This document shows positions 4,487-20,586 of a stretch of 64,000 nt of DNA, piece by piece. Below the pieces are notes generated by a model. The model was not told the origin of the DNA. It was given only the letters and a program-made list of their open reading frames with translations, and made no database searches. The DNA is from Roseobacter cerasinus (GTDB taxonomy: Bacteria > Pseudomonadota > Alphaproteobacteria > Rhodobacterales > Rhodobacteraceae): the NCBI RefSeq assembly GCF_009811755.1, contig NZ_BLIV01000002.1, positions 613,001-677,000 of the forward strand, read 5' to 3'. Within the stretch, counting starts at the first letter, position 1, and every line of letters starts with the position of its first letter. The position numbers and the translations under genes were made by a program.

Positions 4487-4640
4487 TTAATTTGCGGCAG
4501 CGAGGTCCTGCAGTGTTGGCTTGTCAAGCAAGGTGACGCGACCGTGGGTTCGGGCAATCATCCAGCGCTTTTTGAGATCTTGTGCATGCGGCTGATAGAC
4601 TTGGGGTGATACCAAGTTCTCGCACAGGCGGTTTCTTCCC
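4487..4640 (-). pseudogene. frameshifted C-terminal remnant of a Crp/Fnr-type regulator
   Basis: One frame reads PKSISRMHK, which looks like the recognition helix of a Crp/Fnr winged helix (TVSR-type). After a frame change the next reads DLKKRWMIARTHGRVTLLDK and then PTLQDLAAAN-stop, matching the wing and C-terminal helix (g-i....gr-vllDr-aLe-lA). The rest of the gene is replaced by phnM sequence. It borders the persulfide dioxygenase operon and may be its former regulator. The assignment rests on short motifs. Confidence 0.45.
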
Positions 4641-5833
4641 TATCCAGTCTTGTTGCCCTGACACCAGACTCCGCGCAGCAGGGGCGTCGGGCCGATGGTG
4701 CGGACCCGCAGTACATCGCCGCGCAGTCCCGGCTGCAACGCCCCGCGATCAGTCAGTTGCGCGGCTTTGGCCGGGCCCGCCGTCACGGTGGCGACGGCGC
4801 GGGGCAGATCATCCCAGAGCCGGGCCAAGTGAAAAGCCGACAACAGCAGCGCCGAGGGCACATAGTCCGACGATACAATGTCCAGCAGATCAGCTTTCGC
4901 CAGGTCTTCTGCGGCGACGTTGCCCGAATGCGAACCGCCCCGGATCAGGTTGGGTGCGCCCATCATCACTGCGATGCCGTTGGCGCGACAGGCGCGCGCA
5001 GCCTCCACGGTTGTCGGGAACTCCGCAAAGCCCACACCATTTTCAGAGGAGGTCGCGACCTGTTCAGCCGTGGTGTCATCGTGGCTTGCCAGCACGGCAC
5101 CAAGCCGTCCGGCCTCGGCAACCGCTCCGGTTTCATGCCGTGCCCCGAAACGCGTCTGAAGGCCCAGCAGGTTCTCGACGTGTTCGGCAAATTCGACATC
5201 ATTCATGCCGCGTTTTTTTGTGACATAGGTTTTTAGTGCGGTCAGATCACGGAACTGGCGCTGGCCGGGGGTGTGATCCATGAGGCTGACAATGCCGACG
5301 CGGTCCTCCGGGCCAAACGTGGCCAATTCCTCCAGCAGGGTTTCTGAGCAAATCTCGGCCCGCAAATGCAGGAAGTGGCTGATTTTGAACAGCCCTTGCG
5401 CGCGCGCCGCCAGCAGTTCGTTGGCCAGCTTGCGCGCATAGTCGATGTAGCGGCCCTTGCCGGTATGGATGGACCCAACCCGCATGGCATCGAAGACGGT
5501 TGTGATGCCCGTAGACGCCAGCTCCGCATCATGGGCGATCAGGGCCGGCAGATGCGGCCAGTCCACATCTGGGCGGGGCTCAATATGGCGTTCGACATTG
5601 TCGGTGTGAAGCTCGACCAGCCCCGGCAGCACCAGATCACCGGCGCAATCCACCGCGCCGGTCGGCACGTGGTCTCCTTCTGCAATCTCCGAAATTACGC
5701 CCTTGTCGATGGTCACTGAGCCGGTCACCACCCGATCCGGCAGCACGAGCCGTGCATTGGCAAGGCAGAGATCACCCGGCAATTCACTGGCGTAGGGTTT
5801 GGTGAGAGAGGACGCGGGGAAAGGAGAATTCAT
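4640..5833 (-). CDS. phnM: alpha-D-ribose 1-methylphosphonate 5-triphosphate diphosphatase
   Basis: A 397-residue amidohydrolase-fold protein. DLVLPGLVELHTDNVERH carries the metal-binding histidines typical of PhnM. Further motifs are ASTGITTVFDAMRVGS, SLMDHTPGQRQFRD, ASHDDTT and the C-terminal GNVAAEDLA region. PhnM removes pyrophosphate from the 5-triphosphate produced by PhnI, giving the ribose phosphonate that PhnJ cleaves. I chose the internal ATG (GAATTC context) because a GCGAG stretch lies eight bases upstream; a GTG three codons earlier is possible. It is the last gene of the phnG-to-M transcription unit, separated from phnN by about 130 bases containing a hairpin. Confidence 0.93.
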   Translation of the reverse strand: MNSPFPASSLTKPYASELPGDLCLANARLVLPDRVVTGSVTIDKGVISEIAEGDHVPTGAVDCAGDLVLPGLVELHTDNVERHIEPRPDVDWPHLPALIAHDAELASTGITTVFDAMRVGSIHTGKGRYIDYARKLANELLAARAQGLFKISHFLHLRAEICSETLLEELATFGPEDRVGIVSLMDHTPGQRQFRDLTALKTYVTKKRGMNDVEFAEHVENLLGLQTRFGARHETGAVAEAGRLGAVLASHDDTTAEQVATSSENGVGFAEFPTTVEAARACRANGIAVMMGAPNLIRGGSHSGNVAAEDLAKADLLDIVSSDYVPSALLLSAFHLARLWDDLPRAVATVTAGPAKAAQLTDRGALQPGLRGDVLRVRTIGPTPLLRGVWCQGNKTG

Positions 5834-5872
5834 ATCATGCACTCGCTTTGTGACTTACCATGTACTGCCCCA

Positions 5873-5964: not shown

Positions 5965-6510
5965 CTATACCTTCGCCGGTTGAAGCAGCGCCACGGCCCG
6001 CGCGACGGTTTGGGAGAGCGGCCCGTCATTGGACACATGGAGCGCGTCAAGTTCTGGTGGCAAGGGCTTTTCGGCCTGCGCCAGACGTTTGGCGATCTCC
6101 GTGTCCGTTTCCCGCCCGCGCGCTGCGAGGCGTTGCGCCAGGGTTTCGGGTTTTGCCGTGATGTTCAGAACCATGACAAGCGGAAAGGTCGCTGCCGCCT
6201 CGGCCAAGGCCCTGCGGGAGAAATTCACAAGGCAATCGGTGCCCGTGTTCAAGTGATGTTTCACTGTAACGGGGATGCCATAGTAGAGTCCATGGGCGCC
6301 CCAATGCACCGCGAAGGCCCCGCTTGCGACCATGGCTTCGAAGTCCTCCACCGATACCGCGTCATAGTCTTCGCCACCCAACTCCGGCGCTCGCGTTATG
6401 ACTCTCCGGACCAGATGAATCTCTGGCAGAGCGGCGTGAATGCCAGCCATCACACTGTCCTTGCCAACCCCCGATGGGCCAACGACTGCGATGAGGCGTC
6501 CTTGGGTCAT
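5965..6510 (-). CDS. phnN: ribose 1,5-bisphosphate phosphokinase
   Basis: A 181-residue P-loop kinase related to guanylate kinase. The Walker A motif VVGPSGVGKDSV starts at residue 9, HLVRRVITRAPE gives the substrate-binding arginines, and EDYDAVSVEDFEAM and VMVLNITAKPETLAQRL follow. PhnN converts ribose 1,5-bisphosphate to 5-phosphoribosyl diphosphate and so ends the C-P lyase pathway in PRPP. Its ATG overlaps the TGA of phnL by four bases, as expected for a translationally coupled cistron. Confidence 0.92.
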   Translation of the reverse strand: MTQGRLIAVVGPSGVGKDSVMAGIHAALPEIHLVRRVITRAPELGGEDYDAVSVEDFEAMVASGAFAVHWGAHGLYYGIPVTVKHHLNTGTDCLVNFSRRALAEAAATFPLVMVLNITAKPETLAQRLAARGRETDTEIAKRLAQAEKPLPPELDALHVSNDGPLSQTVARAVALLQPAKV

Positions 6511-7193
6511 GCGGCCAGCCCGGGGGTAAAGCAGCTCACGTCGATCTCGCGGTCGCAGACACGGGCACGGGCTGCTTCGTCGTGGAAGATACCGATGATC
6601 GCAGCGCCCCGCGCCTTTGCGGCCTCGATAAGCGTGAGAACCACCTCCCGATTGGCCGCATCCAAGCTCGCCGTCGGTTCGTCAAGCAGCATCGCCGGAT
6701 AAGCATGGGCAAAGCCGCGTGCGATGTTCACCCGTTGCTGCTCGCCCCCTGAAAACGTCGTGGGCGACAACGACCAGAGCCGCTCCGGGATGTTGAGCTG
6801 GCGCAGAAGTTCCTCAGCCCGGGAATGGGCATCCGCGCCGCTCACGCCCAAGGCGCGCAGCGGGTCTGCGACAACGTCCAGCGTCGGCACCCGTGGGACC
6901 ACGCGCAGGAACTGGCTGACATAGCCCAGCACCTCGCGGCGCAGCGCAATGACCTCTCGTGGCTCAGCCTGCACAATGTCTACGTCACCGATGCGGATCT
7001 CGCCCGACTGGGTCAGGTAGTTGCCATAGATCATCCGCATCAGGGTCGATTTCCCGGCGCCCGAGGCCCCGGTCAGCGCGACACATTCGCCCGGTGCGAC
7101 TGTGAAGGACACATTACTGATCACGCCGATCACGGCGCTCCCCTGATTGTGTAGGGTGAAGGTTTTAGAGACCTCTCTGAGTTCTATCATCAT
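6507..7193 (-). CDS. phnL: C-P lyase complex ATPase PhnL
   Basis: A 228-residue ABC ATPase. Walker A is [20 protein letters not shown], the signature is FSGGEQQRVNIARG and Walker B is AMLLDEPTASLD. The switch histidine is in GIFHDEAAR. The MIYGNYLTQSGEI stretch is characteristic of PhnL rather than a transporter ATPase. With PhnK it binds the PhnGHIJ core and probably powers substrate loading or product release. The start is one of three consecutive GTG/ATG codons; the ATG overlapping the phnK stop (TGATG) was chosen. Confidence 0.93.
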   Translation of the reverse strand: MMIELREVSKTFTLHNQGSAVIGVISNVSFTVAPGECVALTGASGAGKSTLMRMIYGNYLTQSGEIRIGDVDIVQAEPREVIALRREVLGYVSQFLRVVPRVPTLDVVADPLRALGVSGADAHSRAEELLRQLNIPERLWSLSPTTFSGGEQQRVNIARGFAHAYPAMLLDEPTASLDAANREVVLTLIEAAKARGAAIIGIFHDEAARARVCDREIDVSCFTPGLAA

Positions 7194-7963
7194 CACACCT
7201 GCAAGACGGAGCTGACAAGAAGTTGGCTGTAGGCGTGCTGCGGGTCATCGAGCACCTGATCGGTCAGACCAGCCTCGACCACGCGGCCCGACTTCATCAC
7301 CATCAGGCGGTCGGCCAACAGGCGCACCACGGCAAGGTCATGGGTTACGATGATCGCCGACAGCCCCATGTCGCGCACCAACCCGCGCAGCAGATCCAGA
7401 AGCCGCGCCTGCACCGACACGTCCAGCCCACCTGTGGGTTCATCCATGAACACCAGACGCGGCCCGGTCACCAGGTTGCGCGCGATCTGCAGGCGTTGCT
7501 GCATGCCCCCCGAGAAGGTTGTGGGCCGGTCATCGACGCGGGTCGCATCAATCTCGACCCGCTCAAGCCAATCGGTGGCTTTGTCGCGGATGTTCCCATA
7601 ATGGCGCTCGCCCACGGCCATCAGCCGCTCACCAACGTTGCCCCCTGCCGACACACCCATGCGCAACCCGTCCCGGGCATGCTGGTGCACAAAGGCCCAG
7701 TCGGTCCGGGACAGCATCCGCCGTTCGGGTTCCGAGAGGGTCACGGTATCTTTGGGGCCATCAGCGCGCGTGTCAAAGACCACCTCACCTCTATCCGGGG
7801 TCAGGTGCCCGGCCAGACAGTTAAGCAGCGTGGATTTGCCCGACCCGCTTTCACCCACGATGCCCATGACCTCACCGGGGTAGAGATCAAACGACACATC
7901 GGCACAGCCGACATAGGCGCCATAGTTCTTGGTGATGCCGGAGACAGAGAGCAAAGCTGTCAT
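7193..7963 (-). CDS. phnK: C-P lyase complex ATPase PhnK
   Basis: A 256-residue ABC ATPase. Walker A is GESGSGKSTLLNCLAG, the signature is FSGGMQQRLQIARN and Walker B is LVFMDEPTGGLD. The sequence between (ERRMLSRTDWAFVHQHARDG, LRMGVSAGGNVGERLMA) is PhnK-specific. Its ATG overlaps the phnJ stop (ATGA). In the enteric complex PhnK docks onto the PhnJ face of the core, which fits its position right after phnJ. No signal or membrane part is seen. Confidence 0.94.
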   Translation of the reverse strand: MTALLSVSGITKNYGAYVGCADVSFDLYPGEVMGIVGESGSGKSTLLNCLAGHLTPDRGEVVFDTRADGPKDTVTLSEPERRMLSRTDWAFVHQHARDGLRMGVSAGGNVGERLMAVGERHYGNIRDKATDWLERVEIDATRVDDRPTTFSGGMQQRLQIARNLVTGPRLVFMDEPTGGLDVSVQARLLDLLRGLVRDMGLSAIIVTHDLAVVRLLADRLMVMKSGRVVEAGLTDQVLDDPQHAYSQLLVSSVLQV

Positions 7964-8817
7964 GCCGCGTCCTTTCCTCTGTGCCCAGCCGCCTGCCGCG
8001 CCTCGCAATAGTCAGTGTCGGAGCAGACAAACATCCGACCACCCGCATCATCCATGATCACCTCATCGAGATAGCTGTCCTCAGCCCCGCACATCCCGCA
8101 GGGGTGATCGGCTTTTGAGGCCTCGAAAGGGTGGTCTTCGAAATCGAGGCTGACGACGTGTGTATAAGGCGGCAATGCATAAATACGTTGCTCTCGCCCG
8201 GCCCCGAACAATTGGATCGCTTCCATACCGTCCAGCTTCGGGTTGTCGAATTTGGGGATCGGGGACGGGTCCATCACATAGCGCCCCTCGACCTTCACCG
8301 GGTAGGCATAGGCGGTCGCGATATGGCCGTGTCTGCTGATGTCCTCATAGAGCTTCACATGCATCAGCCCGTATTCCTCAAGACTGTGCATCTTGCGCGT
8401 CTCGCTCTCGCGCGGCTCAAGAAAGCGCAGCGGCTCGGGGATTGGCACCTGGTAGACAAGGATCTGCCCTGCGCTCAGGGGGTCTTCGGGGATGCGGTGG
8501 CGGGTCTGGATCACGGAGGCATCGGCGGTCGTGGTGGTCGTCTCCACGCCTGCAGTCCGTTCAAAGAAGGTGCGGATCGAGACCGCATTGGTCGTGTCAT
8601 CCGCGCCCTGATCGATCACCTTGAAGGTATCCTCGGGCGTCAGAATGGCGGCTGACACCTGCACGCCGCCGGTGCCCCAGCCATAGGGCATCGGCATCTC
8701 GCGGCTGGCAAAGGGCACCTGATAGCCGGGGATCGCCAGACCTTTGAGGATGGCACGGCGGATCATCCGCTTGGTCTGCTCATCGAGATAAGCGAAATTG
8801 TAGGCCTGATCGGTCAT
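7960..8817 (-). CDS. phnJ: alpha-D-ribose 1-methylphosphonate 5-phosphate C-P lyase
   Basis: A 285-residue radical-SAM enzyme, the catalytic subunit that cleaves the carbon-phosphorus bond to release methane (or another alkane) and ribose cyclic phosphate. HPCGMCGAEDSYLDE followed by MFVCSDTDYC contains the four cysteines of the PhnJ iron-sulfur and active-site cluster. GYQVPFASREMPMPYGWGTG near the N-terminus is the family's best conserved block. It overlaps both neighbours by four bases (ATGA). Upstream, unusually, is a HAD-family gene and not phnI itself. Confidence 0.96.
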   Translation of the reverse strand: MTDQAYNFAYLDEQTKRMIRRAILKGLAIPGYQVPFASREMPMPYGWGTGGVQVSAAILTPEDTFKVIDQGADDTTNAVSIRTFFERTAGVETTTTTADASVIQTRHRIPEDPLSAGQILVYQVPIPEPLRFLEPRESETRKMHSLEEYGLMHVKLYEDISRHGHIATAYAYPVKVEGRYVMDPSPIPKFDNPKLDGMEAIQLFGAGREQRIYALPPYTHVVSLDFEDHPFEASKADHPCGMCGAEDSYLDEVIMDDAGGRMFVCSDTDYCEARQAAGHRGKDAA

Positions 8818-9407
8818 AGAAGCCCCCGTGCCTTGAGGCCAGTTTCAAGCGCACCAGGCCCGGTGAAATGGATGGCATCCATGCCAGCGGCCTTCGCGCC
8901 GAGGCAATTGTGCATTCCGTCGTCGGTGAAGATGCAGTCCGCTGCCTCTACACCCGCCTCGGCACAGAAATGGCGGTAAATTGCAACACTTGGCTTCACC
9001 ATGCCGACCTTGCCGGAAACGATTGTGGTCTCAAAAACCTCGGCCAACTCGGGATGCGCCCGGCAGCCTTCGGGCCAGGTCTCAGCTGACCAATTTGTGA
9101 TGGCGAAAACCCGCACACCTGCGTCTTTGAGGGCGTATAGAATGTCCCATGTTCGGGAAATCTTGTTTGGAACCGTTTGCGCATAGCGCGCGACATATTG
9201 TGCCAGGCGTTTGCCATCCTCTGCATCTGTCAACGCACGCGCCGCGTCAAAGAAGGACGTGCCCGCATCGCAGGCAAAGTTCAGTTTGTCGAAGTTGATG
9301 CGCTGCAAGAAAGCCTTGGTTTCTGCCGCTCCCAGATCGTCGTGCCAGGCCAGGGCCGGGTCCCAGTCGATCAGGACCGCGCCAATATCAAAGACAACAT
9401 GTTTCAC
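8814..9407 (-). CDS. HAD-superfamily hydrolase embedded in the C-P lyase operon
   Basis: A 197-residue HAD subfamily IA protein. Motif I is FDIGAVLIDWDP, motif II is AITNWSAE, the motif III lysine lies in VGMVKPSVAIY, and motif IV is CIFTDDGMHN. The second aspartate of motif I is glycine, as in YihX-like members. The start is a GTG overlapping the phnI stop (GTGA), and the gene's stop overlaps the phnJ ATG, so it is locked between two core subunits. YihX-like enzymes dephosphorylate sugar phosphates, and no phnP is present in this locus. A role on a ribose phosphate intermediate, or in repair of a damaged product, is inference. Confidence 0.9.
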   Translation of the reverse strand: MKHVVFDIGAVLIDWDPALAWHDDLGAAETKAFLQRINFDKLNFACDAGTSFFDAARALTDAEDGKRLAQYVARYAQTVPNKISRTWDILYALKDAGVRVFAITNWSAETWPEGCRAHPELAEVFETTIVSGKVGMVKPSVAIYRHFCAEAGVEAADCIFTDDGMHNCLGAKAAGMDAIHFTGPGALETGLKARGLL

Positions 9408-10492
9408 TCTGCAGCCTCCTGCACCTGAGCCGCGCTCGCTTCGCGACGCAGCTTGCGCACCAGCTCCAGCTCTGACTGAAAGTCGACGTAGTGCGGCAGC
9501 TTGATGTGCTCCAGAAAGCCAGTCGCCTGAATGTTGTCCGCGTGGTAGAGTACAAACTCCGCATCCTGCGCAGGCGCGCCCACATTGTCTTCGCCCAGCT
9601 CTTCCCAACGCAGCGCACGATCAACAAGCGCCATGGAGATCGCCTTACGCTCGCTCTGGCCAAAAACCAGGCCATAGCCGCGCGTGAATTGCGGCGGTTC
9701 GGTCTTGGACCCTTTGAACTGGTTCACGGTTTCGCACTCGGTCAGGCTGACGTCGCCGATCTCGACGGCAAAGCCCAACTCGGGGATGTCCATCTCAACG
9801 GGCACGGTGCCGATGCGCAACTCGCCCACAAAGGCATGGTTCCGGGCGTATCCCCGCTGTGTCGAATAGGCGAGCCCTAGGGTGAACCCTTCATCCGCAC
9901 GGCTCAGCGCTTGCAGGCGCAGCGCCCGGTCAGCGGGCATTTCCAGCGGCTCCCGCGTCAGATCGGGAGGGGGTGTATCGTCATGCGGGGCCTCTTCGAT
10001 CAGGCCCTCGCGGTTCAGGAACTCAGTCACGTGAGGCACGTCACCCGGTTCAGCCTCCCGCGTGGGCGCTTCCGGCTGGCCCCCATCCGCGGCCAGTTTG
10101 AAATCCAGCAAGCGATGTGTGTAGTCGAACGTCGGCCCAAGCACTTGACCGCCCGGCAGGTCCTTGAACGTCGCCGAGATGCGTCGATCACAGGCCATCG
10201 CCCCGGTATCGACTGGTTCTGACGCGCCAAAACGCGGCAAGGTCGTGCGATAGGCGCGGATCAGAAAAATCGCCTCGATCAGGTCGCCCCGCGCTTGCTT
10301 GATCGCCAGCGCTGCGAGATCCGGATCATAAAGCGAGCCCTCAGCCATCACGCGGTTGACCGCGAGGCTCAGCTGCTCGCGGATCTGCGTGATGCTGAGT
10401 TCGGCGACGTCGGTGTTGCCCCGGCGCTCTTCGGCGAGCCAGGCATGGGCGTTTGCAATCGCCCGTTCACCGCCTTTGACAGCCACATACAT
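9404..10492 (-). CDS. phnI: C-P lyase core subunit PhnI (purine ribonucleosidase triphosphate synthase)
   Basis: A 362-residue protein beginning MYVAVKGGERAIANAHAWL, the canonical PhnI N-terminus, with RRISATFKDLPGGQVLGPTF and GYGLVFGQSERKAISMAL in the middle and C-terminal regions. With PhnG, H and L it displaces adenine from ATP by a phosphonate, giving ribose 1-phosphonate 5-triphosphate. The start ATG overlaps the phnH stop (TGATG), ruling out longer upstream readings. PhnI sits centrally in the PhnGHIJ hetero-octamer. Confidence 0.95.
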   Translation of the reverse strand: MYVAVKGGERAIANAHAWLAEERRGNTDVAELSITQIREQLSLAVNRVMAEGSLYDPDLAALAIKQARGDLIEAIFLIRAYRTTLPRFGASEPVDTGAMACDRRISATFKDLPGGQVLGPTFDYTHRLLDFKLAADGGQPEAPTREAEPGDVPHVTEFLNREGLIEEAPHDDTPPPDLTREPLEMPADRALRLQALSRADEGFTLGLAYSTQRGYARNHAFVGELRIGTVPVEMDIPELGFAVEIGDVSLTECETVNQFKGSKTEPPQFTRGYGLVFGQSERKAISMALVDRALRWEELGEDNVGAPAQDAEFVLYHADNIQATGFLEHIKLPHYVDFQSELELVRKLRREASAAQVQEAAE

Positions 10493-11055
10493 CAGCAGAC
10501 CTCTATCGTTCTGGGCAGTGCTGCAAGCTGGCTGCCGCTGGTGAAAATGAAGTCGAGCCCCAAGGGAAACAGGGCCGTGTTGGCCTGCAACGCCCCCACA
10601 TCTGGTAATGACAGCGACGCAGTGTCCTTGATGCCAGGGCCAGTAAGCGTTGTGCCCGATGCCACAAGCCCTGCGCCGTCCACGACCAGCGTTGCTGAGC
10701 GATCCGGGTAGTCCGGGGTGCCGATGGGATAGGCATGTAGCGGCATCAAAGCCTCCCAGCGGCCCAGGGCGAACATGCAGTGTGACGGCCCCGTCAGCGG
10801 CGCGCCAGTATGAAAGGCCAGCCATGCGCGCACCGCGTCGCAATCCGCCTCTCCAGCCAGATAAATCGGGGTCTCGCTGTCGCAGAGTGTGAGAAGAACG
10901 GCTCCCGCAGCCTTGGACAAGGGGGCTGGTGGTTCTGCACCACTGATGTCGTGAATAGTACCCGGGCGCGCCATCGCTTCCATCACACTGCGGAAGGCGT
11001 GGGCCGATTGGATGGCCGGGTCGGCAAAGCCGCCGCACAGGGTTTCAGCCTGCAT
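10492..11055 (-). CDS. phnH: C-P lyase core subunit PhnH
   Basis: A 187-residue protein starting MQAETLCGGFADPAIQSAHA. It has FRSVMEAMARPG and LLTLCDSETPIYL early, then GTPDYPDRSATLVVDG and LTGPGIKDTASL, all PhnH hallmarks. PhnH is a non-catalytic PLP-transferase-like fold that dimerizes in the core complex next to PhnI. It overlaps phnG and phnI by one base each (TGATG). Confidence 0.94.
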   Translation of the reverse strand: MQAETLCGGFADPAIQSAHAFRSVMEAMARPGTIHDISGAEPPAPLSKAAGAVLLTLCDSETPIYLAGEADCDAVRAWLAFHTGAPLTGPSHCMFALGRWEALMPLHAYPIGTPDYPDRSATLVVDGAGLVASGTTLTGPGIKDTASLSLPDVGALQANTALFPLGLDFIFTSGSQLAALPRTIEVC

Positions 11056-11510
11056 CAATCCTCTCCTCTGGCCAGTGTGAAGAACTCGACCTTGGTCGCT
11101 GCGGCCTTTGCGGCGCGTGCAGCCTTTGTAGCCCGCTGCTCGTCTGCGAGTGGCTCCAGCACGGTTTCGCGCAACCGGCGCGCCGCGTCCGTTTGCATCA
11201 GCGCATCGACCAGCGCTGCCGCTTCGGCATCCCCCTGGCGGCGGCCCTGAATATACGCATGGCCCACTTCGCCGGTTCTCAGCGTCAGCGCGCATCGTGT
11301 GACCGTCATCTCACCCAGATTGAACGGCGCGCCAGTACCGCCCATGCGGCCACGCACCATGGTGCTGCCGATCTCGGGCGCGCGCAGCCAGGTGAAGGCG
11401 GGACGGCTCATTGCTGCGTCCAAAAGAGCCGCGACTCGGCCTTCGGGCGCCTTTGCCATCAGGCTCATCCAGGCCCTGCGCGGGTTTTCCTGACCCAAAG
11501 TGTCTTTCAT
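11055..11510 (-). CDS. phnG: C-P lyase core subunit PhnG
   Basis: A 151-residue protein. LRAPEIGSTMVRGRMGGTGA and FNLGEMTVTRCALTL are the conserved PhnG segments, and the C-terminus is a charged helix. PhnG is part of the PhnGHIJ core and is needed with PhnI for the nucleosidase step. It is the first gene of the leftward unit; an 81-base gap separates it from the divergent regulator phnF, which presumably controls it. Confidence 0.93.
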   Translation of the reverse strand: MKDTLGQENPRRAWMSLMAKAPEGRVAALLDAAMSRPAFTWLRAPEIGSTMVRGRMGGTGAPFNLGEMTVTRCALTLRTGEVGHAYIQGRRQGDAEAAALVDALMQTDAARRLRETVLEPLADEQRATKAARAAKAAATKVEFFTLARGED

Positions 11511-11591: not shown

Positions 11592-12311
11592 TTGCGTAAC
11601 ACTGCCGCCAAGACCCCGATCTGGAAGGCCATCGCGGACACGTTGCGCGGTGATCTGGCCGAAGGCCGCTATAGCCCCGGTGACAAGCTGCCGACGGAGG
11701 CCGACTTGGCGGAGCGCTTTGGCGTCAACCGTCATACGGTGCGTCACGGCATCTCCGCATTGGTCGATGAAGGTCTGATCCGCACGCGGCGCGGGGCGGG
11801 GGCCTTTGTTGCGGCGACGCCCACGGATTATCCGATTGGGCGGCGGGTGCGGTTTCATGAAAACCTGATCGCGGCGGGGCGCCGCCCGGAAAAGCGCGTC
11901 CTGCAGGTCGAACACCGGGCAGCGACAGACGGTGAAGCGCGGGCGCTGGCGATTTCCCCTGGCGATCCGGTCTGCGCCTATCACGGCCTGTCACTGGCCG
12001 ACGGGCAAGCCATCGCGCTTTTTGAGAGCCTGTTCCCATTGGCCCGCCTGCCAGGCATCGGGACCGCATTGGCCGAGACAAGCAGCGTGACGCAGGCGTT
12101 GAACAGTGTCGGCGTCGCTGACTACACGCGCGCCTCCACACGGCTGACGGCGGTGCGCGCGTCGGCCACCCAGGCCCTGCATTTGCAGGTTGCCGAAGGG
12201 GATCCGCTGCTCAGGTCGTCCGGGGTCAACATCGACGAAGGCGGTTTACCGGTGGAGTACGGCCGGACGTGGTTTGCAGGTGACAGGGTGACGCTGACGC
12301 TGGACATCTAG
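11592..12311 (+). CDS. phnF: GntR/UTRA-family regulator of phosphonate genes
   Basis: A 239-residue regulator. The N-terminal winged helix (residues 10-75) contains [20 protein letters not shown] and [13 protein letters not shown], then a UTRA effector domain ending in [18 protein letters not shown]. The only plausible start is TTG, because an in-frame stop lies two codons upstream; GAGGG is placed about nine bases before it. The protein likely represses the divergent phnG operon and senses a phosphonate or sugar-phosphate ligand. Its stop and that of the convergent transferase gene share one CTAG tetranucleotide. Confidence 0.9.
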
Positions 12312-12925
12312 CCTTTGTATTTCTCCAGAAAGGCCTCGGCCCGCAGCGCGCGGAAGTCCTCAAGCGCTCTGCGCAGCGCATCATGGGGCCAATCCCACCA
12401 GGCCAGCGCGATCAGCCGGTCCGCAATGGCGCGCGGTTGACGCGCGCGCAAGTCCTTGGCCGGGGTGCCAGCGACAATGGTGTAAGGGTCAACGTCTTTG
12501 GTGACCACGGCCCCTGCCGCGACTACGGCGCCGTGTCCCAATGTGACCTCGGGTTTGATCATGGCACCCGCACCGATCCAGGTATCGTGGCCAATGTGAG
12601 CCACGCGTGACTTGCGGTATGCAAAAAAGTCGGCGTCCCGGCTCGCATCATCCCAATAGTCCTCCGACCGATAGAGGAAATGGTGGCAGGCGGCGGTGTG
12701 CAGCGGGTGGTCGGTGGCTCCGATCCGGCTGAAGGCTGCGATGTTGGCAAACTTGCCGATCTGCGCGTTGGCGATGTCGGCATAGCGGTCACAGTAGCTG
12801 TAGTCGCCGAAGGCCGAATGCGCGACGCGGCTGCCTTTGCCAATCTCGACATAGGCCCCAAATGTGCTGTCCGTGATTTCACAGTCGGGATGCAAGACCG
12901 GGGTCTCAGGCGACAGGCGCGGCAT
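12308..12925 (-). CDS. hexapeptide-repeat acyltransferase of phosphonate operons
   Basis: A 205-residue left-handed beta-helix protein. Repeats such as [20 protein letters not shown] and [20 protein letters not shown] are followed by [12 protein letters not shown], the usual xenobiotic acetyltransferase end. This is the transferase type repeatedly found inside phn clusters of alphaproteobacteria. It may acetylate aminoalkylphosphonates, the task done by PhnO in enterics; the substrate is not proven. It is the last gene of the phnCDE unit, two bases after the small ORF. Confidence 0.88.
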
Positions 12926-12927
12926 GA

Positions 12928-13122
12928 TCAGACCTCTGTTTCTTTGGCGGTCAAATGGACGATCTTCCCGGTATTAGGCATCGCGCGTTGGTCTGGCCCG
13001 GCGACACTCTTGGCGGCGACCGCACTGGGCTTATCGCGCGCGCCCTGCCCAGCCCCGATTGCAATGGCCAGACCTGTGGCTCCGCCCCTGCGGTTGCTGC
13101 TCAAGATCAGACGACGCGCCAT
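12928..13122 (-). CDS. small hypothetical protein coupled to phnE2
   Basis: A 64-residue ORF starting [20 protein letters not shown]. Its ATG overlaps the phnE2 stop (TGATG), and only two bases separate its stop from the next gene's ATG. The tight packing argues for a translated gene. It has no signal peptide, membrane helix or known motif. The N-terminal part is basic with a small hydrophobic glycine/alanine patch. No function is recognised. It could also be a relic of a P-loop protein, since an [11 protein letters not shown]-like stretch resembles a degenerate nucleotide loop, but that is weak. Confidence 0.5.
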
Positions 13123-14435
13123 CAGTCCTTGCGCCCGATCATTTTGCCGCGCAGCCAACCGGAGACCCAATCCATGAACATGACCATGGCGATGATCAGC
13201 ATGATGTAATAGGCGACCTCTTCCCAGTCCTTCTGGGTCTGGATGGCCTGCGTCAGCATCAGGCCAATGCCGCCGCCGGTGATTGCGCCGATGATTGTGG
13301 CCGAGCGTGTGTTGGATTCCAGAAAATACAGGATCTGCGCCAATAGAACCGGAACCACCTGTGGGATGACCCCAAACCGATAGCGTTGCAGCGGTTTGGC
13401 ACCGGTGGAGGACACGCCCTCTATCTGTTTCTGGTCGACATTCTCCAAGGCTTCGGAGAAGATTTTGCCAAAGGTGCCCGTGTCGGTGATCAGGATTGCC
13501 AGCGCCCCGGTCAACGGCCCCGGACCAAACGCGCGCGCCAGCACCACCGTCCAGATCAACGCATCCACCCCGCGCACGAAGTCAAAGAGGCGACGGGTTG
13601 CGGCGCGCAGCAGCATGATTGGCGAAAACCGTTTGGCAGCCAAAAAGGCCAGCGGCAAAGCGATGAGCGCGGCCCCCATTGTGCCAAGAAAGGCCATCAG
13701 GATTGTCTCGCCAATCGCCCAGACCACGTCTTTGTGGCGCCACATGGCATTGTTCCACCAGTCCGAGACCGCGCCCGGGATGTTGCCGCGCGCGGGGTCG
13801 ATCCGGTCGCCGAACAGGATCGTGCCGAGGCTCTGCCCGTGGTAGGGGCTGTCCAGTGTGAACCAGAACAGCTCCCAACCGGGGAAGTAATTGAACACCT
13901 CTGTGCGCGCGCCGGTGAGGGTGATCCGCCCCTCGGGCGTGGTGATGCTGATCCGTCGGCTGGAGGCGGAGATCCAGTCAGGCAGATCCTGCGGCAAATT
14001 GCTTGTCAGCTTCCGGCCTTCGGCCTGCACGTCGATCAGCGGCAGCCCCGGGATCTCGATCTCGGTTCTGTTGTCCGGCAGGTAGCGTACAACATGCTCA
14101 CCGCCGAGCGCGATGGTGATCACCTCGTCGCCACTAACCCACGCGGGGCGCTGGCCGTCCGGGTAGGTGCCTTTGCGTTCGCCTTCCACGGCATATGTGA
14201 TGTCGCCTGAGCGGTTGTCGCGCGTCACATGCACCTTGTGCGACCAGCTATCGGAGGCCAGCGTGATGGCGTTGTCGAGGTTCGCGCGCTGCGCCAGGCC
14301 CGGCAGGTCGAAGGCAAAGAAGATATAGGCAAGGTAGAGCGTGACCACACCCGGAATGCCAAAAGCCATCAGGCGTTTGCGCCGAAACAGGGTGTCGGCC
14401 TCCTGCTTGGTCAGGGTCAGATCGGCTGTGGTCAT
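13122..14435 (-). CDS. phnE2: phosphonate ABC transporter permease, long form
   Basis: A 437-residue inner-membrane permease. One helix near residues 27-45 is followed by a hydrophilic, probably periplasmic region of about 180 residues. Then come five or so helices with the permease loop FSEALENVDQKQIEGVSSTG and the GAITGGGIGLMLTQAIQTQ region. PhnE proteins are usually near 270 residues; the inserted domain accounts for the difference. It overlaps the first permease gene by ATGA, and the two probably form a heterodimer with PhnC and PhnD. Confidence 0.92.
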   Translation of the reverse strand: MTTADLTLTKQEADTLFRRKRLMAFGIPGVVTLYLAYIFFAFDLPGLAQRANLDNAITLASDSWSHKVHVTRDNRSGDITYAVEGERKGTYPDGQRPAWVSGDEVITIALGGEHVVRYLPDNRTEIEIPGLPLIDVQAEGRKLTSNLPQDLPDWISASSRRISITTPEGRITLTGARTEVFNYFPGWELFWFTLDSPYHGQSLGTILFGDRIDPARGNIPGAVSDWWNNAMWRHKDVVWAIGETILMAFLGTMGAALIALPLAFLAAKRFSPIMLLRAATRRLFDFVRGVDALIWTVVLARAFGPGPLTGALAILITDTGTFGKIFSEALENVDQKQIEGVSSTGAKPLQRYRFGVIPQVVPVLLAQILYFLESNTRSATIIGAITGGGIGLMLTQAIQTQKDWEEVAYYIMLIIAMVMFMDWVSGWLRGKMIGRKD

Positions 14436-15307
14436 TGGCCCTGTCCTTCCGTCAGTCGGTTGCGGTAGCGGCTGGAGACCTGGTCAAAGAACACGATGGT
14501 TCCGAACAGGAGGATGAAGATCGCACCCGCCTCGTCGAACCGGCCCGGACCCCAGGCCATGGCATTGCGCAGCTCATAACCCAGACCACCCGCGCCCACG
14601 AAGCCGAGAATGGCGGAGGCGCGAATGTTGATCTCGAACCGCAGCAGCGCGTAGCTGATGTAATTCGGCGCAACTTGTGGCAGCACGCCGAGCACCATGC
14701 GTTGTGACCACGTCGCCCCGGTCGAGGCGAGACCTTCGACCGGCTTCAGATCCGCGTTTTCGGCCACTTCAGAGAACATCTTGCCAAGCGCGCCTGCTGT
14801 GTGAATTGCGATGGCGATCATCGCGGGCACAGGCCCGCCGCCCAGCACGAAGATCAACATCAGCGCGATCACGATCTCCGGCACCGCGCGCATGATGTCC
14901 GAGATCCGGCGAAACAGGGGGATCAGGCGTGGCCATTTGGCAAGTCCGCGCGTTCCGAGCAGGGACAGCACCAAACCTCCCATGCCGCCGATCAGGGTCG
15001 AGACGGCAGCGATATTCACTGTTTCAACCAATGCCGGGACATACTTGAGGATAAGGGCAGGCAGATCGGCACGCTTTTCCCAGGCCTCGGTCAGCACTTC
15101 GGCCGGGTAATCTCCGATCTGGTGCAGGCCGTCCCAAAAACCGCCTGCATTGCGGTCATCCGCGATGTTGAACCCGGACGCCATGAGAATGACGAAAATC
15201 AACAGGGTCAGGCCGCCATAGAGCCTGCGGCGTTGAACCTGCGCCATGTAGCTGGATTGAATGGTATCTATGCCTTGTGGCGCAGACCCCAGTGCCGCGT
15301 CTGACAT
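14432..15307 (-). CDS. phnE1: phosphonate ABC transporter permease
   Basis: A 291-residue permease with an N-terminal helix (LYGGLTLLIFVILMASGF) and a binding-protein-dependent transport domain containing FSEVAENADLKPVEGLASTG, the EAA-loop equivalent of PhnE. The ATG giving MSDAALGS was chosen over an upstream in-frame codon that lies in the terminator-bearing leader. It follows phnD after a hairpin-T tract and overlaps phnE2. Confidence 0.93.
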   Translation of the reverse strand: MSDAALGSAPQGIDTIQSSYMAQVQRRRLYGGLTLLIFVILMASGFNIADDRNAGGFWDGLHQIGDYPAEVLTEAWEKRADLPALILKYVPALVETVNIAAVSTLIGGMGGLVLSLLGTRGLAKWPRLIPLFRRISDIMRAVPEIVIALMLIFVLGGGPVPAMIAIAIHTAGALGKMFSEVAENADLKPVEGLASTGATWSQRMVLGVLPQVAPNYISYALLRFEINIRASAILGFVGAGGLGYELRNAMAWGPGRFDEAGAIFILLFGTIVFFDQVSSRYRNRLTEGQGQ

Positions 15308-15320
15308 GCCCCGACCCCCC

Positions 15321-15353
15321 AAAAAAAGACCGGCGGCCCCGAAGGGCCACCGG
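15321..15353 (-). terminator. intrinsic terminator between phnD and phnE1
   Basis: On the minus strand CCGGTGGCC pairs with GGCCGCCGG (one G-U pair) over a CTTCGG-type loop and is followed by seven T residues. A complete terminator inside the transport operon would let phnC and phnD be made in excess over the permeases, a common arrangement for binding-protein transporters. Confidence 0.75.
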
Positions 15354-15371
15354 ATACGTCATGAAAATGAC

Positions 15372-16283
15372 TTAGCCGCCGATCTTGGCTTTGCGGGCCT
15401 CGACGATGGAAATGTAGGTCTCGTGCGTCACCGGCTGAGCGCCGAGGTTGTCGCCTGCGAAGACGCCATAAGAGCAATCGGCGTCGGTTTCATAGAGGTT
15501 GTCCATCAACTCTGTCATTTTGGCTTTTACGTCGTCTGGCAATGCGCTGCGCAGAACGATGGGGCCTTCCGGGATGACATCGGATTTCCAGATCTGCACC
15601 AGCTCATTCATGTCGACCAGACCGGCATCAACCGCGCGGCGCAGCGCGCCGGAGTTGTAACCGTCTTCCCAGTTGCCCTGGCCGTCGGCCCAGGTGACGC
15701 CACCATCAATGTCACCATTGTTGACGGCGACGATGGTCTGCTCATGGCCGCCGGTGAATTTGACTTCGCCGAAATACTCACCGGACTCCATGGTGATGCC
15801 CGCTTTGTACTGCGGGATCTCGATGGAGGGGATCAGGTAGCCGGAGGTGGAGTTCGGATCACCGAACCCAAACACTTTGCCTTCCATATCGTCCAGCGAT
15901 GTCACGCCGCTGTCCTTGCGCGCAAATCCGATGGAGTGATAGCCGATGGAGCCGTCAAGGTTGACCTTGACCAGCACAGGCTCAACCGCGTTCGGGTCTT
16001 GCAGGTAGGTGGCGGCATAGGACGAGGCCCCCAGCCAGGCCATATCGAGCGTACCGCCGAGCAGACCCTGGATGACGCCGTTGTAGTCTGCGGGGGCGAA
16101 CACCTTTGTCTCAACACCCAGCGCTTCACTCGTGTAGTCGACAAGGCACTGATAGTTGTTGATGCGGTCCTGTGCATTCTCGCCGCCCAGAACACCGATG
16201 CGGAATTCGGTGATCTCTTCGGCGAAAGCAGCAGTGCTCAGCGCAGTTGTGGCGGCAAAGGCCAGTGCGAGGGTCTTTTTCAT
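15372..16283 (-). CDS. phnD: phosphonate-binding periplasmic protein
   Basis: A 303-residue secreted protein with signal peptide MKKTLALAFAATTALSTAAF, cleaved after AFA. The mature part shows the PhnD-like fold: FRIGVLGGENAQDR, the ligand loop DMAWLGASSYAAT, and FGFGDPNSTSGYLIPS with the Ser/Thr phosphonate ligands. It delivers phosphonates to PhnE1E2. The start is preceded by a GGGAGAAAACG ribosome site. Confidence 0.94.
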   Translation of the reverse strand: MKKTLALAFAATTALSTAAFAEEITEFRIGVLGGENAQDRINNYQCLVDYTSEALGVETKVFAPADYNGVIQGLLGGTLDMAWLGASSYAATYLQDPNAVEPVLVKVNLDGSIGYHSIGFARKDSGVTSLDDMEGKVFGFGDPNSTSGYLIPSIEIPQYKAGITMESGEYFGEVKFTGGHEQTIVAVNNGDIDGGVTWADGQGNWEDGYNSGALRRAVDAGLVDMNELVQIWKSDVIPEGPIVLRSALPDDVKAKMTELMDNLYETDADCSYGVFAGDNLGAQPVTHETYISIVEARKAKIGG

Positions 16284-16323
16284 CGTTTTCTCCCTTGGAT
16301 GTGATGAAGATGGCCCGCGTGGA

Positions 16324-17157
16324 TCACGCGGGGTGAACTGGCTCGGGCGTGGATGTCCGCGCGCGGACCCCCGGCCTGTCCAGTGTCTCGATTTCGGTCG
16401 AGGTCGCCGCCTCGGAAAAATCCGCGCCCGCGCCATAGATGTCACGCGCCACACCGGTGGTGAGCTGCGCGGGGGTGCCGTCAAAGACGATGCGCCCGTC
16501 GCGCATGCCGATGACCCGGTCGCAATACCGCCGTGCCGTATCGAGCGTGTGCAGATTGGCGATGACCATGCGCCCGTCTTCCTCGTGAATGGTCCGCAGT
16601 GACTGCATCACAACTTGAGCGTTCATCGGGTCAAGGCTTGCGATTGGTTCATCGGCCAGAATGATCTTGGGGTTCTGCATCAGGGCCCGGGCAATGGCGA
16701 CGCGTTGTTGCTGGCCACCGGACAGCGCTTCGGCCCGCTTGGGTGCCTGTTCGGCGATCCCCAGCCGGTCAAGGATCTCGATGGCCTTGTGGATGTCCGA
16801 CTGCGGGTAGAGGTTGAACATGGTCGACAACGTCGACCGTCTGTTCAGGGTCCCGTGCAGCACGTTCGACACCACGTCCATCCGGGGCACCAGGTTGAAT
16901 TGTTGAAAGATCATTGCACAGCGGGACTGCCAATGCCGCTTGGCCGCCCCGCGCAGCGCCGTGATCTCTTCGCCCTCGAATGTGATCGTGCCCTCGGAGG
17001 CATCACTGAGCCGGTTGACCATACGCAGCAAAGTCGACTTGCCTGCTCCGGACCGACCGATGATCCCGATCATTGTCGGTTTGTCGACAGAGATGGTGGC
17101 CGCATCCACGGCCGTCTTGTCCCCGAACCGCTTTGTGAGCCTATCGATTTGCAGCAT
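16324..17157 (-). CDS. phnC: phosphonate ABC transporter ATPase
   Basis: A 277-residue ABC ATPase. Walker A is [17 protein letters not shown], the signature is [17 protein letters not shown] and Walker B is [31 protein letters not shown] is typical of PhnC. The C-terminal tail of about 35 residues is extended and threonine/proline-rich. It is the first gene of the transport unit and lies 39 bases downstream of a Pho box, so phosphate starvation should induce it through PhoB. Confidence 0.93.
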
Positions 17158-19785: not shown

Positions 19786-20586
19786 ATGACCAAAATTTCC
19801 AATTCAGCCTATGAGGCGGAGCTTGCAAGGCTGCAGATCGAGCTGGTGAAGCTTCAGGAATGGGTCAGGCACACCGGAGAGAGGATCGCGATTGTCTTCG
19901 AAGGGCGCGATGCCGCGGGCAAAGGTGGAACGATCAAACGCATCACCGAAGCGATGAATCCGCGTATTTGCCAGGTGGTCGCCCTACCCGCCCCGACCGA
20001 GCGCGAGAAATCGCAGTGGTACTTTCAGCGCTATGTGGCGCATCTGCCTGCCGCAGGTGAGATCATCATTTTTGACCGCTCATGGTACAACCGCGCCGGT
20101 GTCGAACGGGTGATGGGGTTTTGCACCGAACATGAGTACCGTGAGTTCATGCGCAGCTGCCCGGAGTTTGAACGCATGCTTGTGCGCTCCGGCATCCGGC
20201 TGATCAAATACTGGTTCTCGGTCAGTGACGAGGAGCAGGAACGGCGCTTTCAGAAGCGGCGCACCCATCCGACCAAGCGCTGGAAGCTGAGCCCGATGGA
20301 TCTGGAAAGCCGCAAGCGCTGGGTCGATTACTCCAAGGCCAAGGACGACATGTTTGCGCATACCGATATCAAGCAATCACCCTGGTATGTGGTGGAGTCT
20401 GACGTCAAAAAACACGCGCGGTTGAACTGCATCAGCCATCTGCTGTCGCTCATTCCTTATGAAGATGTCGCGGCGGATGAGATCATTCTGGAGGAGCGCC
20501 CGCCCCAGCGTGGCTATGTACGGCCGCCGATGGCGGATCAGACCTTTGTCCCCGACGCCCATTCCAAGCTGATCAAAGCGCAATAG
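19786..20586 (+). CDS. ppk2: polyphosphate kinase 2
   Basis: A 266-residue one-domain PPK2. Walker A is FEGRDAAGKGGTIKRITEAM, followed by PTEREKSQWYFQRYVAHLP and the lid/Walker B block IIFDRSWYNRAGVERVMGFC. PPK2 uses polyphosphate to phosphorylate nucleoside diphosphates (or the reverse). The GGGGGAGACCAAG leader supplies the ribosome site. It sits alone on its strand, followed by the HU gene in opposite orientation. Confidence 0.94.
   Translation: MTKISNSAYEAELARLQIELVKLQEWVRHTGERIAIVFEGRDAAGKGGTIKRITEAMNPRICQVVALPAPTEREKSQWYFQRYVAHLPAAGEIIIFDRSWYNRAGVERVMGFCTEHEYREFMRSCPEFERMLVRSGIRLIKYWFSVSDEEQERRFQKRRTHPTKRWKLSPMDLESRKRWVDYSKAKDDMFAHTDIKQSPWYVVESDVKKHARLNCISHLLSLIPYEDVAADEIILEERPPQRGYVRPPMADQTFVPDAHSKLIKAQ

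Follow-up and report, generated by a model that had tools for sequence, protein, structure and literature searches.

A conserved HAD-type phosphatase gene between phnI and phnJ in the C-P lyase operons of Rhodobacteraceae

Why would a gene for a HAD-type hydrolase stand between phnI and phnJ, two genes of the carbon-phosphorus (C-P) lyase core, and what might its product do there? The question arises in a stretch of 64,000 nucleotides (nt) from Roseobacter cerasinus (contig NZ_BLIV01000002.1, positions 613,001 to 677,000), hereafter the window, whose own numbering is used throughout. The HAD open reading frame (ORF), on the minus strand at 8814-9407, is intact from its GTG start (9407-9405) to its TGA stop (8816-8814) and encodes a HAD-IA phosphatase of 197 amino acids (aa), matching PF00702 (46.3 bits, cut-off 26.4) and TIGR01509 (44.3 bits, cut-off 29.4). 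As the initial annotation had read it, the gene overlaps both neighbors: the TGA of phnI (9404-10495, minus strand; PF05861, 549 bits) shares 4 nt with the HAD start (GTGA, 9407-9404; minus-strand junction text gcagaGTGAaacatg), and the HAD stop shares 4 nt with the ATG of phnJ (7960-8817, minus strand; PF06007, 479 bits) at 8817-8814 (ATGA; minus-strand junction text tctATGAccgat). We find that the gene is a conserved, accessory part of phn operons in the Rhodobacteraceae, one for which we found no published description, and our best guess is that its product dephosphorylates a ribose phosphate.

The inserted HAD is a Rhodobacteraceae trait, present in many marine members of the family and neither an oddity of a single strain nor universal. 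A scan with one genome per species returned 178 relatives, and among the best 80 of these 178 loci, which were fetched, 73 have the order phnI-HAD-phnJ; one more (L049) lies on a contig that begins at HAD followed by phnJ and was counted as cut at the contig edge, and six hold orphan HADs away from phn order. The 4-nt overlap is kept on the phnI side in 58 and on the phnJ side in 55 of the 73 ordered loci. Record titles place nearly all relatives in the Rhodobacteraceae sensu lato, with a few metagenome-assembled genomes (MAGs) labeled only Alphaproteobacteria and one Erythrobacter (L054). A Qingshengfaniella plasmid carries a copy of the phnI-HAD-phnJ arrangement, annotated only as 'HAD family phosphatase'. 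In one of the 73, a Litoreibacter MAG (L037, ~9833-10423), the HAD frame is broken into two pieces, possibly through an assembly error, and owing to this break the 'gap' between HAD and phnJ is partly HAD sequence.

A second sample, of 198 family genomes with one per genus, contained a close HAD in 26 (best matches down to E 1.7e-38), PhnJ in 89 and both in 24. In all 24, HAD lies immediately upstream of phnJ on the same strand, with the profile matches at most 33 nt apart in 22 genomes and 235 and 274 nt apart in the other two. PhnJ was present in 24 of the 26 genomes with a close HAD versus 65 of the 172 without (Fisher p 1.3e-7, kinship uncorrected). None of the 43 PhnJ genomes from other families in the class sample had HAD beside PhnJ (HAD profile, E ≤ 1e-15; the position list used for this check omitted one second match, in genome G290, on a different contig). 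The conserved position inside phn operons of many genera marks HAD as an accessory gene of the C-P lyase operon; its occurrence with PhnJ is not exclusive, given that two of the 26 family genomes and all six orphan MAG genomes have HAD without detectable PhnJ. The conserved slot, the single clade described below and the co-occurrence with PhnJ together link HAD to the C-P lyase pathway, and to this extent the earlier suggestion of a function tied to that pathway stands.

We found no description of a HAD between phnI and phnJ in the open PubMed Central (PMC) literature, as represented by article listings, passages and two whole sections. Passages of PMC9381506, PMC6852614 and PMC9947105 name no such HAD, and the passages of PMC5649143 on Sulfitobacter and Roseovarius phn clusters list rcsF and other extra genes and no HAD. 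In Phaeobacter, PhnI (MED193_17614) and PhnJ (MED193_17624) are induced by phosphate stress (PMC10132767); one locus tag, MED193_17619, falls between the two, and the main text of that paper is silent on it. The tag numbering and a Phaeobacter MAG with HAD in this slot (L059) suggest that MED193_17619 is the operon HAD. Outside the family, in genome G455 (1.4 Mb), a distant HAD lies 17.9 kb from PhnJ; a HIMB59 phosphonate island also shows a HAD (PMC10734472), which may be a different one.

The protein itself has the hallmarks of a HAD-IA enzyme with a C1 cap: the catalytic Asp of motif I, D7, is present in 42 of 42 sequences, and T104 (motif II), K138 (motif III) and D162 and D163 (motif IV) are invariant in the same 42. 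Motif I reads DIGAV, which places Gly9 at D+2, where the DxD typical of phosphatases has a second Asp. The initial annotation had recorded this glycine correctly and concluded that the chemistry was not obvious. That conclusion can be relaxed: the same DxG is printed in alignments of E. coli YihX (FDLGNV) and the drimenol synthase AsDMS (9m7d; FDLGDV), and YihX is nonetheless an active and relatively specific alpha-glucose 1-phosphate phosphatase, i.e., it cleaves an anomeric phosphate (PMC4251788). Glycine also occupies D+2 in 99% of 82 core members and in 28 of 28 comparison HADs. The missing second Asp is therefore not decisive, and the chemistry of HAD would be that of an ordinary phosphatase, leaning toward anomeric phosphates.

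Structure comparison points the same way. The AlphaFold2 model of HAD has a pLDDT of 97.9, and solved HADs align with it over residues 1-197. The nearest solved structures by Foldseek are E. coli YihX entries (query TM 0.78-0.79), while VIA-align gave the Deinococcus hydrolase 3cnh (Z 21.4), BT2542 (18.8), YihX (18.8; root-mean-square deviation 2.8) and the phosphatase domain of epoxide hydrolase (18.3). YihX (HAD4; PDB 2b0c, 8pne, 8pno), also the closest characterized relative by sequence (63.9 bits with the profile), shares the HAD-IA fold with C1 cap, the DxG of motif I and the aligned KP and DDxxxN of motifs III and IV (Z 18.6-18.8), but it is only ~21% identical to HAD and is not a phn gene; with 51.1 bits against a cut-off of 295 for the YihX equivalog model NF006991, HAD is related to YihX but is no equivalog. 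The N-terminal phosphatase of soluble epoxide hydrolase and the HAD domain of drimenol synthase belong to the same fold group (Z ~18, AsDMS again with DxG) but are parts of larger proteins whose substrates are lipid or terpene phosphates. Three residues, R36, F39 and D64, are private to the operon clade, occurring in all core members (82 rows, orphans included) versus 0, 7 and 0% of 28 others; the count left out four basal operon members, and by eye two of these (L025 and L028) have Glu36. R36 might, as a guess, bind a second phosphate.

Which phosphate ester would such an enzyme meet? PhnP, a phosphoribosyl cyclic phosphodiesterase of metallo-beta-lactamase fold, acts in the same stretch of the pathway, and the statement that phnP is missing here holds throughout the genome (4.47 Mb in 24 contigs, 99.99% complete), in which the best TIGR03307 score was 34.1 bits against a cut-off of 272 with all 13 candidates scored. 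A PhnP encoded elsewhere in the genome was rejected on this score, which belongs to another ORF. HAD itself is unlike PhnP, TIGR03307 not being among its 16 matched families. No genome of the 198 in the family sample exceeded the TIGR03307 cut-off and none of the 279 in the class sample had a match at E ≤ 1e-40, with the E. coli control detected and with more first-look candidates in some genomes than were scored. Weak matches (E ≤ 1e-12) in 122 of the 198 family genomes look like another metallo-hydrolase; the best family match was partial, with 153 bits in G149, a genome without PhnJ. There was no anticorrelation between HAD and phnP to find, PhnP falling below the limit in every sampled genome, with or without HAD. 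PhnP absence therefore explains nothing about HAD, and with DUF1045 present as well, the notion of the initial annotation that HAD fills a step because phnP is missing is not supported.

DUF1045, or RcsF, of the 2H superfamily, was earlier proposed as a likely PhnP substitute (PMC10574752, PMC8235418, PMC3840354). A Rhodobacteraceae cluster with RcsF/DUF1045 and without phnP restored methylphosphonate growth of E. coli lacking phnH-P, and passages on this cluster name no HAD (PMC3840354). In the R. cerasinus genome, DUF1045 is encoded outside the phn cluster, on contig C4, and has the two HxT/S motifs of 2H proteins (HGTV and HMTL); its Foldseek matches are YjcG, Arabidopsis CPDase and LigT (E 2.7e-6 to 1.7e-4, TM ~0.5). 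Of the 87 family genomes whose PhnJ is canonical, 86 have DUF1045, in 59 cases no more than 8 kb from PhnJ; it was also found in 45 of 46 PhnJ genomes of the class sample and is missing from none of the 24 family-sample genomes with HAD in the operon. As proposed in print, DUF1045 may open ribosyl 1,2-cyclic phosphate 5-phosphate, a ring opening of the same kind as PhnP's; it is the other phosphoesterase of these clusters, unrelated to HAD in fold. DUF1045 stands in the operon in 11 of 24 HAD-in-operon genomes versus 48 of 63 HAD-less PhnJ genomes (one per genus; Fisher p 0.010, kinship uncorrected) and inside 47 of the 65 HAD operons fetched through to phnM; the two samples disagree on a HAD-DUF1045 anticorrelation, and some contigs are short. 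Two arrangements can be added as separate observations: genome G161 has a main phn operon with HAD and without DUF1045 (L038) and a second mini-cluster of phnM, DUF1045, phnN and phnF (L186, 5070-8656), and in genome G015 a distant HAD lies 1.3 kb from DUF1045.

We tentatively favor an accessory role for HAD as an anomeric sugar phosphatase that acts after DUF1045 on ribosyl 1,5-bisphosphate and releases inorganic phosphate (Pi) free of ATP cost, a scheme in which we infer activity, substrate and order alike. Through translational coupling, HAD, a putative C1-capped HAD-IA sugar phosphatase of the YihX type, would be made together with the C-P lyase core complex. PhnJ would yield 5-phosphoribosyl 1,2-cyclic phosphate, DUF1045 as a 2H phosphoesterase would open its ring to give ribosyl 1,5-bisphosphate, and HAD would strip the anomeric phosphate, leaving ribose 5-phosphate and free Pi. 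This route could run parallel to that of PhnN without spending ATP. PhnN would use the proposed substrate too and is encoded in the same operon in the window, but it is a kinase, turning ribosyl 1,5-bisphosphate into phosphoribosyl pyrophosphate (PRPP) at ATP cost. Phosphonate-derived phosphorus may thus be freed at once as Pi and not via PRPP and pyrophosphate. Use of methylphosphonate by C-P lyase releases methane. C-P lyase occurs in 38 of 54 Roseobacter clade genomes (PMC5649143). In 2012 the final conversion of phosphonate-derived phosphorus to Pi was described as unsettled, with the fate of the 1-phosphate of ribosyl 1,5-bisphosphate given as unknown and the last steps regarded as not firmly established (PMC3463581). 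A phosphatase encoded within the core operon would offer a route to Pi that is defined and can be tested.

Several findings weigh against this proposal. PhnN is encoded in 69 of 74 loci with phnJ, and the other five end before it; ribosyl 1,5-bisphosphate therefore already has a user. HAD is dispensable, since 65 of the 89 PhnJ family genomes lack it, among them G056, whose PhnJ is sister (support only 83) to that of L033, the HAD-bearing locus nearest to the window's. Distances among HADs correlate loosely with those among PhnJ proteins (Mantel r 0.39, a value reached by none of 999 permutations; 70 loci), compared with r 0.86 between PhnI and PhnJ at the same 70 loci. HAD occurs without detectable PhnJ in eight genomes, namely the six with orphans plus G160 and G151, and four of the eight (G478, G479, G160 and G151) also lack DUF1045, which counts against an obligate HAD-DUF1045 pair. 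DUF1045, found in 39 of 109 family genomes without PhnJ, is not itself tied to PhnJ. Plasmid p3 of an isolate, Paracoccus sp. SCSIO 75233, carries an orphan HAD (L227, 8501-9097) directly behind a TRAP transporter operon, and another orphan HAD (L088) is less constrained, with a ratio of nonsynonymous to synonymous substitution rates (dN/dS) of 0.34 to L103. None of the six orphan genomes yielded a PhnJ, all of them being MAGs with completeness not given; genome-wide absence is accordingly less certain there than local loss.

What persists where the rest of the operon is gone? Four of the six orphan genomes encode DUF1045, and in two of these it adjoins HAD. In a Ruegeria MAG (L062, genome G476), HAD (10001-10597, plus strand) and DUF1045 (10626-11309, minus strand) are convergent and ~30 nt apart; in a Marivita MAG (L111, genome G480), HAD runs to 10594 on the plus strand and the DUF1045 match spans 10664-11320 on the minus strand, again convergent and at most ~70 nt apart. 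Searches by tblastn with the window's phn proteins found no other phn genes near either pair in the 15.9 and 20.6 kb fetched. Both proteins of the Ruegeria pair nest with Ruegeria operon copies on starred branches of the trees, and the Marivita pair nests with Marivita operon copies, DUF1045 on a starred branch and HAD with support of 89-92. Since each pair groups with operon copies from the genus in which it occurs, the pairs look like the products of two separate losses of the remaining operon. Relative to near operon copies, dN/dS (Nei-Gojobori) was 0.07-0.10 for HAD and 0.10-0.15 for DUF1045 where computable, at dS of 1.4-2.9, near saturation, and with infinite dS for two HAD comparisons; given these low values, neither gene of the pairs looks to be decaying. 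In two lineages without detectable PhnJ, then, HAD and DUF1045 persist side by side under purifying selection, an arrangement newly seen here.

These two pairs are the best hint that DUF1045 is the partner of HAD and that the two together serve some purpose outside C-P lyase, and they offer a genetic handle on the proposed DUF1045 step. A broader version of our proposal, which we regard as doubtful, is that DUF1045 and HAD make up a two-enzyme module converting ribosyl cyclic phosphates to free Pi and ribose (5-phosphate), one that would serve as an ATP-free exit from C-P lyase and survive on its own elsewhere. If so, the pair in lineages lacking C-P lyase would handle ribosyl cyclic phosphate from another source. 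ADP-ribose cyclic phosphate made by KptA was considered as a general reason for the survival of HAD and DUF1045 and rejected, as PF01885 occurs in only 4 of 31 genomes; it is present in the Ruegeria MAG and absent from the Marivita MAG and the other four orphan genomes.

The gene seems to have a single origin and to have been passed on only loosely afterward. In a quick HAD tree of 94 rows, thinned from 114, one clade of 67 rows (SH-aLRT 94) holds 59 operon copies, all six orphans and the copies from G160 and G151, and it stands apart from other alphaproteobacterial YihX-like HADs. Tree topology suggests that a YihX-type HAD entered the phn operon between phnI and phnJ in an ancestral member of the Rhodobacteraceae, probably in a single capture. 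Over the poorly resolved PhnJ tree, HAD presence is scattered, requiring 14 changes where shuffling gave 17.1 on average (15 of 500 shuffles were as low), and starred branches force at least three changes in presence. This scatter, together with the loose HAD-PhnJ distances, makes HAD an accessory gene that was gained or lost repeatedly.

The same scatter suits the reading of HAD as a hitch-hiker, i.e., a fast-moving, YihX-like general sugar phosphatase that ended up in a coupled slot and contributes nothing specific to the use of phosphonates. This reading is also in line with the eight genomes that have HAD and no detectable PhnJ, half of them lacking DUF1045 too, and with the Paracoccus plasmid orphan beside a TRAP transporter. 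A hitch-hiker would not be expected, however, as a single clade in a single slot across 24 genomes of 24 genera, nor with 24 of 26 close HADs in PhnJ genomes, and the two eroded operons kept HAD with DUF1045 and not with other neighbors; we think this reading improbable, if less so than those that follow.

Slightly behind it, and likewise unlikely in our view, comes damage control, in which HAD would clear off-pathway phosphates of the C-P lyase core without being a main step. Its targets might be ribose 5-triphosphate from side hydrolysis by PhnI, stalled 5-phosphoribosyl phosphonates or excess cyclic phosphate. Coupling of HAD to both phnI and phnJ accords with this reading, dispensability and patchy presence suit a housekeeping function, and the medium of E. 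coli phnP strains holds dephosphorylated ribosyl phosphonate and ribosyl cyclic phosphate (PMC3463581). HAD copies in genomes without PhnJ would, however, meet no such by-products, and YihX favors an anomeric phosphate, not a 5-triphosphate (PMC4251788).

The YihX preference for the anomeric phosphate of glucose 1-phosphate, as that of the closest characterized relative (PMC4251788), bears also on the idea that HAD acts as a 5-phosphatase, on ribose 5-phosphate or the cyclic 5-phosphate, and frees ATP-derived phosphate and ribose for export or catabolism. The operon context would be the same, HAD-like phosphatases are often broad (PMC4251788), and the core clade has its private residues R36, F39 and D64, yet with the YihX preference against it we give this role a small chance only.

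HADs are generally monoesterases, which counts against a HAD that itself opens the 1,2-cyclic phosphate in place of PhnP, the stronger option of the initial annotation. Although no PhnP was found in this genome and DUF1045 lies outside the cluster both here and in 13 of the 24 HAD-in-operon genomes, compared with outside or absent in only 15 of the 63 HAD-less PhnJ genomes (the uncorrected Fisher p of 0.010 above), such a replacement is most improbable given that DUF1045 is present in all 24 and inside 47 of the 65 HAD operons reaching phnM, that PhnP is missing regardless of HAD, and that a cluster with RcsF/DUF1045, no phnP and no HAD named in the passages describing it complements E. coli (PMC3840354).

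The window also holds the remainder of the phn locus. Downstream of phnJ on the minus strand are phnK (7193-7963, its start picked by eye at an internal ATG of the ORF 7193-8008; TIGR02323, 395 bits for the longer ORF), phnL (6507-7196; TIGR02324, 317 bits), phnN for ribosyl 1,5-bisphosphate phosphokinase (5965-6510; TIGR02322, 188 bits, cut-off 156) and phnM (4640-5842; TIGR02318, 424 bits, above cut-off). Upstream of phnI on the same strand are phnH (10492-11055, its start placed by eye within the translated stretch 10492-11127; TIGR03292, 154 bits, and PF05845, 189 bits) and phnG (11055-11510; TIGR03293, 166 bits). A divergent phnF-type GntR/UTRA regulator (11592-12311, plus strand; PF07702, 107 bits, and PF00392, 70 bits) is followed by a hexapeptide transferase of phn clusters (12308-12925, minus strand; TIGR03308, 298 bits) and a phosphonate ABC transporter (13122-17157, minus strand). 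The latter comprises two permeases, a binding protein and an ATPase (ORFs 13122-14435, 14432-15322, 15372-16484 and 16324-17157; phnE, phnE, phnD and phnC by order), which were named from position, from recurrence beside related loci and from L228, where RefSeq annotates the same order. A polyphosphate kinase 2 gene (PPK2, 370 bits; 19786-20586, plus strand) lies near these phn and transporter genes, and in Phaeobacter a PPK2 is induced by phosphate stress (PMC10132767).

The junction that received HAD varies elsewhere. Among 19 HAD-less loci around PhnJ, phnI and phnJ overlap by 4 nt in ten, are separated by 63 nt in one and by 181-559 nt in eight (L114, L115, L116, L119, L120, L122, L124 and L126); the eight long gaps have no HAD match, and by eye the translations of some resemble those of palindromic repeats. 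Junctions next to HAD hold, in several genera, ~240-710 nt with short antisense ORFs of ~50-120 aa, on the phnI side in L036, L064, L075, L078-L080, L084 and L085 and on the phnJ side in L053, L064, L074, L077-L080, L084 and L085. Three examples of these antisense ORFs had no Pfam match. Many have hydrophobic stretches, and Gly/Asp-rich ends are seen in those of L036, L064, L075 and L053 and in the phnI-HAD gaps of L078-L080, L084 and L085. The phnI-phnJ junction seems to accept insertions repeatedly.

Other YihX-like HADs, distant from the operon type, lie 4-7 kb from phnJ in genomes G017, G008 and G104. Those of G017 and G008 are sisters located beyond phnF, next to phn operons that lack the inserted HAD (L214, 2922-3506, minus strand; L215, 11277-11861, plus strand). 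Nine of the 198 family genomes (G086, G127, G139, G112, G020, G171, G022, G074 and G080) have a second PhnJ type that is divergent (~377-389 bits), and in G074 it is the sole PhnJ and lies near DUF1045.

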